Positions 15,967 through 16,786 of a stretch of 40,183 nucleotides of DNA are shown here, one piece after another; within the stretch, counting starts at the first letter, position 1, and each line of letters begins with the position of its first letter. The notes below the pieces were generated by a model. It saw nothing but the letters and a program-made list of their open reading frames with translations. It did no database searches and was not told the origin of the DNA. The translations under genes and the position numbers were made by a program. Source of the stretch: Paracoccaceae bacterium (GTDB taxonomy: Bacteria; Pseudomonadota; Alphaproteobacteria; Rhodobacterales; Rhodobacteraceae); NCBI GenBank assembly GCA_002683685.1, contig NYTV01000119.1, positions 1-40,183 of the forward strand, in the 5' to 3' direction.

Positions 15967-16290
<324 letters not shown>

Positions 16291-16377: not shown

Positions 16378-16405
16378 TTGCGATATTACTCAAATGTTCT
16401 ATTTA
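16378..16405 (+). promoter_or_regulatory. SOS promoter in front of the dnaE2 remnant
   Basis: TTGCGA (16378-16383) and TATTTA (16400-16405) are 16 nt apart. The -10 box is embedded in the LexA box at 16396-16410, the normal way LexA blocks RNA polymerase. The transcript should begin near 16412. Confidence 0.55.
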
Positions 16406-16410
16406 TGTTC
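16396..16410 (+). promoter_or_regulatory. LexA (SOS) box
   Basis: GTTC (16396-16399), seven bases, GTTC (16407-16410): a perfect match to the direct-repeat LexA operator GTTC-N7-GTTC of alphaproteobacteria. It overlaps the predicted -10 box and lies immediately upstream of a piece of dnaE2, a gene that is SOS-regulated in this class. The coincidence of motif, promoter and gene makes chance unlikely. Confidence 0.75.
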
Positions 16411-16411
16411 C

Positions 16412-16786
16412 ATGCTATTTGACTCTCCCAACACTTGGCCCAAGCCCCCCGCGGCCCTGCCCCATGCTATGCTGGAGCTGCCGCCAAATGGGGCAGGAGT
16501 TACGGTGGCGGGTTTGGTATTGGTGCGCCAAAGACCCGGTACGGCCAATGGAGTCATTTTCATCACACTGGAGGACGAGACCGGGGTGTGCAATGTGATC
16601 GTCTGGCGCAAACTCTATGAACGTTACCGGCGCGCCGTGATCTCAGGGCGTATGTTGCGAATTACCGGCCGCATTCAACGCGAAGGCGCTGTGTGCCATG
16701 TGATCGCTGAGCATGTGGAGGATATATCTTTCATGCTAGATGATCTCTTGCTGCCAGAAGCCAGTCGCGCCACCGAGCAGCCGTAA
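16412..16786 (+). pseudogene. dnaE2: C-terminal remnant of error-prone DNA polymerase DnaE2
   Basis: About 100 residues match only the extreme C-terminal OB-fold region of DnaE2 (ImuC): VTVAGLVLVRQRPGT, GVIFITLEDETGV, VIVWRKLYERYRR and ITGRIQREGAVCHVIAE. Full-length DnaE2 is about 1,000-1,100 residues, so the polymerase and PHP domains are absent, and imuA and imuB, the usual neighbours, are also missing. The reading frame is intact from about 16394 to the TAA at 16786. Candidate starts are ATG at 16412, almost at the predicted transcription start, or an internal ATG in HAMLEL; neither has a good ribosome-binding site. It could still make a small SOS-induced OB-fold protein. I treat it as a deletion remnant. 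Confidence 0.8.

Follow-up and report, generated by a model that had tools for sequence, protein, structure and literature searches.

A conserved OB-fold gene behind a LexA box in Rhodobacteraceae is probably the detached C-terminal part of a split DnaE2

The stretch of DNA analysed here (the window) comprises 40,183 bases of the genome of a Paracoccaceae bacterium and carries, next to a ferredoxin gene, a short open frame preceded by a LexA box. The original prediction, made from the sequence alone, had read this frame as a scrap of the error-prone polymerase gene dnaE2, left in place when one deletion removed an imuA-imuB-dnaE2 cassette. The features of the locus are as follows.

15967-16290, minus strand: divergently oriented gene for a presumed 2Fe-2S-type ferredoxin, as named in that prediction; a conserved neighbour outside the system (divergent homologue near the OB gene in relatives)
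16378-16383, plus strand: -35-like element TTGCGA (46 loci aligned on the LexA box)
16396-16410, plus strand: LexA (SOS) box GTTC-N7-GTTC, overlapping the -10-like TATTTA at 16400-16405 (sequence; homologous loci)
16412-16786, plus strand: standalone DnaE2 OB-fold gene, 124 aa plus stop (profile and Pfam matches, homologues, dN/dS)
16436-16462, plus strand: conserved N-terminal WPxPPAALP segment (14 aligned copies)
16499-16723, plus strand: OB-fold domain (PF01336), residues 30-104 (Pfam, E = 4.8e-12)

Against the DnaE2 profile NF004225 the window frame matched the C-terminus only, at positions 948-1039 of 1047 (E = 2.4e-30), which together with the PF01336 match bears out its assignment to the C-terminal OB-fold of DnaE2. 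Its start had to be corrected, as the frame originally listed began at an ATG at 16394, ahead of the box, and the conserved ATG lies at 16412, 1 nt after it. The product is a DnaE2-derived part and not a DnaE2. It lacks the C-terminal SRDF[H/R] motif, and none of the 49 standalone OBs examined carries an SRDFH tail. Residues W9, P10, P12 and P13 of the N-terminal segment are invariant in 14 aligned copies of the protein; a similar segment, WPRPPACL, forms the linker preceding the OB domain in the fused DnaE2 of one relative (G327) and is absent from the other 11 fused rows of the OB tree described below. Comparison with the five closest copies gave dN/dS values of 0.040-0.053, rejecting a lack of selection, and pN/pS was 0.094 for residues 25-112 and 0.345 for the N-terminal part. 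The gene is under purifying selection. An AlphaFold model of the protein alone was poor (mean pLDDT 61). As judged from its sequence, the window gene is thus a conserved small gene rather than a scrap.

The box, GTTCTATTTATGTTC (16396-16410, plus strand), is an exact GTTC-N7-GTTC located where it had been predicted, and is the single occurrence in the 40,183-base window with both strands counted. Its predicted overlap with the -10 element of a promoter was also confirmed: TATTTA (16400-16405) is separated by 16 nt from TTGCGA (16378-16383), of which the first T, second T, G and C are conserved in 46, 36, 44 and 30, respectively, of 46 homologous loci aligned on the box, and the distance of the TTG from the box is constant over these loci. 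The whole genome (2.23 Mb) contains 38 exact GTTC-N7-GTTC compared to 94 occurrences of the reversed control pattern, and hence shows no enrichment of the pattern as such; the evidence for a LexA box is its fixed position across relatives. An exact box lies at the OB gene in 47 of 49 homologous loci, which are best matches rather than a random draw (the exceptions being G033 and G284), and near it in 79 of 80 named loci, the best 80 of 580 relatives, with some genomes shared between both sets; the chance expectation is about 0.001 per 60-bp stretch. The standalone OBs of G119 and G302 also lack an exact box. In 42 of the 46 aligned loci, 1-3 nt separate the box from the ATG, and the OB mRNA is probably leaderless because transcription is predicted to begin close to this codon. 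The window gene thus has a LexA box at its promoter, as do members of the LexA regulon, and is likely under SOS control; the small SOS-induced OB-fold protein that the original prediction had thought possible is a likely product of this conserved, box-bearing gene.

The short OB gene is present in 16 of the 20 genomes of the genus, the 15 copies besides the window's being 74-97% identical to it, and each of the 16 genomes has a single OB match. At least 134 of the 296 genomes of the family sample had an OB match in a frame of less than 700 aa among the matches listed, to which all our family counts refer. Removal of G127 and G201 as pieces near contig ends left a standalone OB gene in at least 132. 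Candidates at G028:C2 (L044) and G201:C29 (L258) were rejected because they are the terminal parts of fused genes lying close to contig borders, and G127:C45 was set aside from its position alone as a probable contig-edge piece. The 80 named loci belong to Planktomarina, Ruegeria, Shimia, Roseovarius, Marivita, Roseivivax, Rhodovulum, Palleronia, Salipiger and other genera. The divergent ferredoxin gene lies beside the OB gene in 48 of the 49 loci and near it in 78 of the 80, more than 1 kb away in four of the 78. One further genome, G021, has a decayed OB gene next to the ferredoxin (L045 4937-5065 / L050 2139-2267), and both of its matched DnaE2 OBs and both of its ImuBs belong to fused cassettes.

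The mutasome cassette is indeed absent from the window, as had been noted: no ImuB, DnaE2 core or ImuA match was found on its contig. Searching the whole genome with an OB-less DnaE2 adjoining imuB in L104 revealed a single DnaE2 core, located at G000:C127:6761-9640 within a 1031-aa open frame, against the predicted loss of SOS mutagenesis. This core is 75% identical to another OB-less core, scores 1207 bits against NF004225 (cut-off 939), and contains the Pol3 core with its catalytic motif, missing from the window gene, as PDIDVDF (residue 407 of the matched stretch), together with the clamp-type motif PLPLF. It spans positions 8-938 of the 1047-position DnaE2 profile and the window gene spans 948-1039: the core stops just before the OB domain, with no C-terminal OB on the same chain, and the two halves cover the parent protein and, as shown below, co-occur, as the parts of a split protein should. 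No second DnaE2 OB match was found in this genome at E values up to 1. The core also lacks the SRDF[H/R] motif. Pfam found the HhH part on it and no PHP domain at E 0.001 (L108), and matched PHP at 1.4e-09 on the fused DnaE2 of G012 (L039); the PHP part of our core may have diverged in sequence.

A LexA box lies about 80 nt upstream of the core match, and one was found upstream of all 13 genus cores whose matches reach the 5′ end (L107-L119), a count that excludes three shorter matches. Outside the genus (L138-L166), only 6 of 29 cores have an exact box close upstream, which counts against uniform control of the cores. The 52 OB-less cores compared end 0-80 residues past the domain border. An HPR-type tail terminates 8 of them, which hints that the OB domain was excised from between core and tail; the cores of L140, L148, L151 and L153 end in HPR followed by RHF or RFFS, resembling an SRDFH remnant. 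The core of G005 is broken into two frames.

Among the 20 genus genomes, 15 have both halves, three have a fused DnaE2 and neither half (G010, G012 and G019), and one each has only the OB (G003, 77% complete) or only the core (G013, in which the ferredoxin gene starts 62 bases from the contig end and the OB site is missing). OB and core are therefore jointly present or jointly absent in 18 of 20. In the family, a core without an attached OB was found in 126 of the 132 listed genomes with a standalone OB, the ends having been read for only some of these 126 cores. The figure comprises 125 genomes by listing, with one OB match each except for G074, whose second is a fused copy, plus G216, in which the OB lies 1.2 kb from the core. 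Outside the 126 are G183, with two core matches, G249 and G302, with one further OB match each, and G089, G099 and G330, which have the OB but in which no core was matched at E 1e-150. Conversely, G083, G102, G186 and G203 have an OB-less core and no OB match, and the OB may accordingly be dispensable there or merely have been missed. At least 16 of the 20 listed OB-less genomes (30 in all) also lack the core and ImuB, and the remaining listed rows are, where they can be judged, fused DnaE2s. Shared descent can partly explain this co-occurrence; it explains less easily the pattern within the genus, where a fused DnaE2 replaces both halves, and the case of G021.

The search for the partner proteins gave no ImuA and no ImuB match in the window's own genome, which is 80% complete. 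Split genomes have a distinct ImuB, found as a variant type in 16 of the 20 genus genomes and in pieces in G018. Sequences such as L097 4324-5979 form a distinct lineage, and their alignment with cassette ImuB is interrupted around residues 162-175, much as an insertion would do. ImuA matches were found in 17 of the 20 genus genomes, 15 of them diverged (partial in G015 and G017) and two in fused cassettes; a joint loss of ImuA and the SRDFH tail in split genomes was rejected, diverged ImuA being found at its own locus. The genes are not contiguous as in an imuA-imuB-dnaE2 cassette, the parts usually lying at separate loci: on the single contig of G011, core, ImuB, ImuA and OB map to 0.02, 0.51, 2.37 and 2.92 Mb. 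In G326, imuB and the core are still adjacent. A LexA box precedes imuB at all eight loci fetched from split genomes, leaving out the fused L039 and L106, and imuA at 24 of 25 (all but L269), leaving out L266, L267 and L283 from fused genomes and L284. A second, weak ImuA-like frame in G012, which carries a fused cassette, also has a LexA box (L283, G012:C56) and may be left over from the split system.

In a core tree built from 59 of 92 core-matching loci, 42 split rows formed one group (100/99), and a neighbouring group with weak support (87/77) united the fused G286 and G327 with the split G216 and G119. L251 (G302), entered in this tree as split, was rejected as such, since its OB domain and RNFR tail show it to be fused. 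In the OB tree (62 rows; L065 was left out as no start was found), 48 standalone rows came together (83/85) and G327 grouped with G216 (99/80), so that the main groups of both trees are concordant. G216 (L249 2627-7370) carries a core with a LexA box, then an inverted unrelated gene, presumably for a dimethylarginine dimethylaminohydrolase, and then an OB with an SRDFH tail and its own LexA box; with this arrangement it probably represents an intermediate stage of the fission. The WPRPP linker of standalone OBs also occurs in G327, although its DnaE2 is fused. All fused forms examined end in SRDFH except for L250 (AREFR) and L251 (RNFR). The position of G216 and G119 beside the fused G327 and G286 in the core tree fits either two fissions or one fission followed by re-fusion. 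Within the genus, the fused DnaE2 of G010 (L041 / L106) is divergent and is accompanied by an ImuB type of its own. A phage search returned one weak match, and the plasmid matches (best 40 of 806 records) were annotated as error-prone DNA polymerase or not at all.

The explanation that we consider probable is that DnaE2 has undergone fission within a dispersed mutasome, with the core encoded elsewhere, the OB domain encoded separately behind its own LexA box, and the two joined in trans. Complementary halves, co-occurrence, joint absence, purifying selection and LexA boxes support it directly, and we infer the assembly in trans. The DnaE2 of this lineage would have been split so that the core, at another locus, ends just before the OB domain, which would be made as a separate protein from its own LexA-controlled promoter; in most split relatives ImuA and ImuB would be supplied from further loci with LexA boxes. 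Upon DNA damage LexA would leave these genes, and the OB protein would bind the core, or the template next to the core, in trans, thereby returning the ssDNA-binding part to a lesion-bypass polymerase of the ImuA-ImuB-DnaE2 type. Even an OB-less core could associate with ImuB and ImuA, and the OB would then contribute the part that binds ssDNA. In the modelled M. tuberculosis mutasome, as given in the accessible part of its description (PMC12926913), the main DnaE2-ImuB contacts are in PHP and HhH and not in the OB; since PHP is not reported on our core, an ImuB contact through PHP is less sure here. Core and OB being encoded at separate loci with separate LexA promoters, the OB could act as a limiting, separately timed switch, so that in many genera of the Rhodobacteraceae an idle or weak core would become an active lesion-bypass polymerase once, and not before, SOS reaches a given level; we offer this two-key mutator tentatively and consider it less likely than not.

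Alternatively, the OB could have left the polymerase to become a small protein, induced by SOS, that binds ssDNA or regulates the replisome, with the core functioning without it. The four genomes with an OB-less core and no OB match and the three with an OB and no core fit such independence, as do the modelled contacts (PMC12926913, in part), which spare the OB, and the OB-less DnaE2 and DnaE3 members in the accessible part of PMC3919608, whose existence suggests that such cores may work. We nevertheless find this improbable given the concordance of OB and core in 18 of 20 genus genomes, their joint presence in 126 of 132 listed family genomes, and the conservation of the OB domain itself (pN/pS 0.094 against 0.345 for the N-terminal part). 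The local deletion first proposed, joining a cassette's SOS promoter to the end of dnaE2 and leaving a decaying remnant, had described frame and promoter well, but can hardly be right: in relatives from many genera the short gene recurs with start, box and neighbour unchanged and with no cassette at the site, which is what the original prediction had itself named as evidence against it; dN/dS is 0.04-0.05; a DnaE2 core exists elsewhere in the same genome; and the three genus genomes with a fused DnaE2 have it on another contig than the ferredoxin, with no OB beside the latter. A recent duplicate of a complete DnaE2 elsewhere, for which one might cite G074, with its fused cassette on a 126,304-base plasmid besides split halves on the chromosome (G074:C1 and G074:C4; L254, L257), is just as implausible, as no such donor was detected in the window's genome, no more than one OB match occurs in any of the 16 genus genomes that carry the short gene, and in the OB tree the plasmid OB of G074 groups with the fused and its chromosomal OB with the standalone forms.

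A DnaE2 split in this way would locate the missing OB domain of the polymerase in a large part of one abundant family, even though C-family polymerases have already been surveyed over thousands of genomes. With the OB domain on a gene of its own, this natural system would allow one to remove, titrate or swap that part of a C-family polymerase and so to test its role in lesion bypass directly. It also cautions that a short orphan "OB-fold" gene can be part of a polymerase and that here a contiguous cassette alone can mislead about the presence or absence of SOS mutagenesis.

The literature, supplements and most subscription papers aside, yielded no description of a separate DnaE2 OB gene. None is mentioned in the accessible part of PMC3919608; the main text of PMC12926913 does not contain "OB domain", "OB-fold" or "Rhodobacter"; and the D. 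shibae literature, as far as accessible and apart from site lists in supplements, mentions a plasmid cassette and LexA sites and not the OB gene. For Phaeobacter inhibens, a co-fitness of R = 0.80 between imuB and dnaE2 in transposon data is reported in PMC10883770. The closest known system is the fused DnaE2 of the ImuA-ImuB-DnaE2 mutasome (e.g. G012, L039), which the split form resembles in sequence, summed domain content, LexA boxes and, in most of the split genomes searched, the presence of ImuA and ImuB as partners. The split form differs in having two genes at two loci, the OB half with its own LexA box, in its scattered imuA and imuB, and in the 49 standalone OBs without SRDFH, of which there is at best a remnant on some cores; the C-terminal SRDF[H/R] motif is reported, in the part of Timinskas et al. 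(PMC3919608) available, from about 77% of DnaE2s. The same part mentions intein-split cyanobacterial polymerase sequences, likewise a C-family polymerase in two genes, whereas here the break is at a domain border, 52 cores ending 0-80 residues past it. In DnaE2X systems, as far as PMC12926913 could be consulted, a mutasome subunit also exists as two proteins, but it is ImuB that is split there (iPolY plus ImuB-C), and the polymerase DnaE2 here. Finally, several DnaE2s and DnaE3 members without an OB domain were described by Timinskas et al. (PMC3919608, accessible part) and share the OB-less core; unlike these, the cores reported here have a separate OB gene that co-occurs with them and bears a LexA box. 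Judged against these partly accessible sources, OB-less DnaE2s were thus known, and what is new is the separate, co-occurring OB gene with its LexA box.
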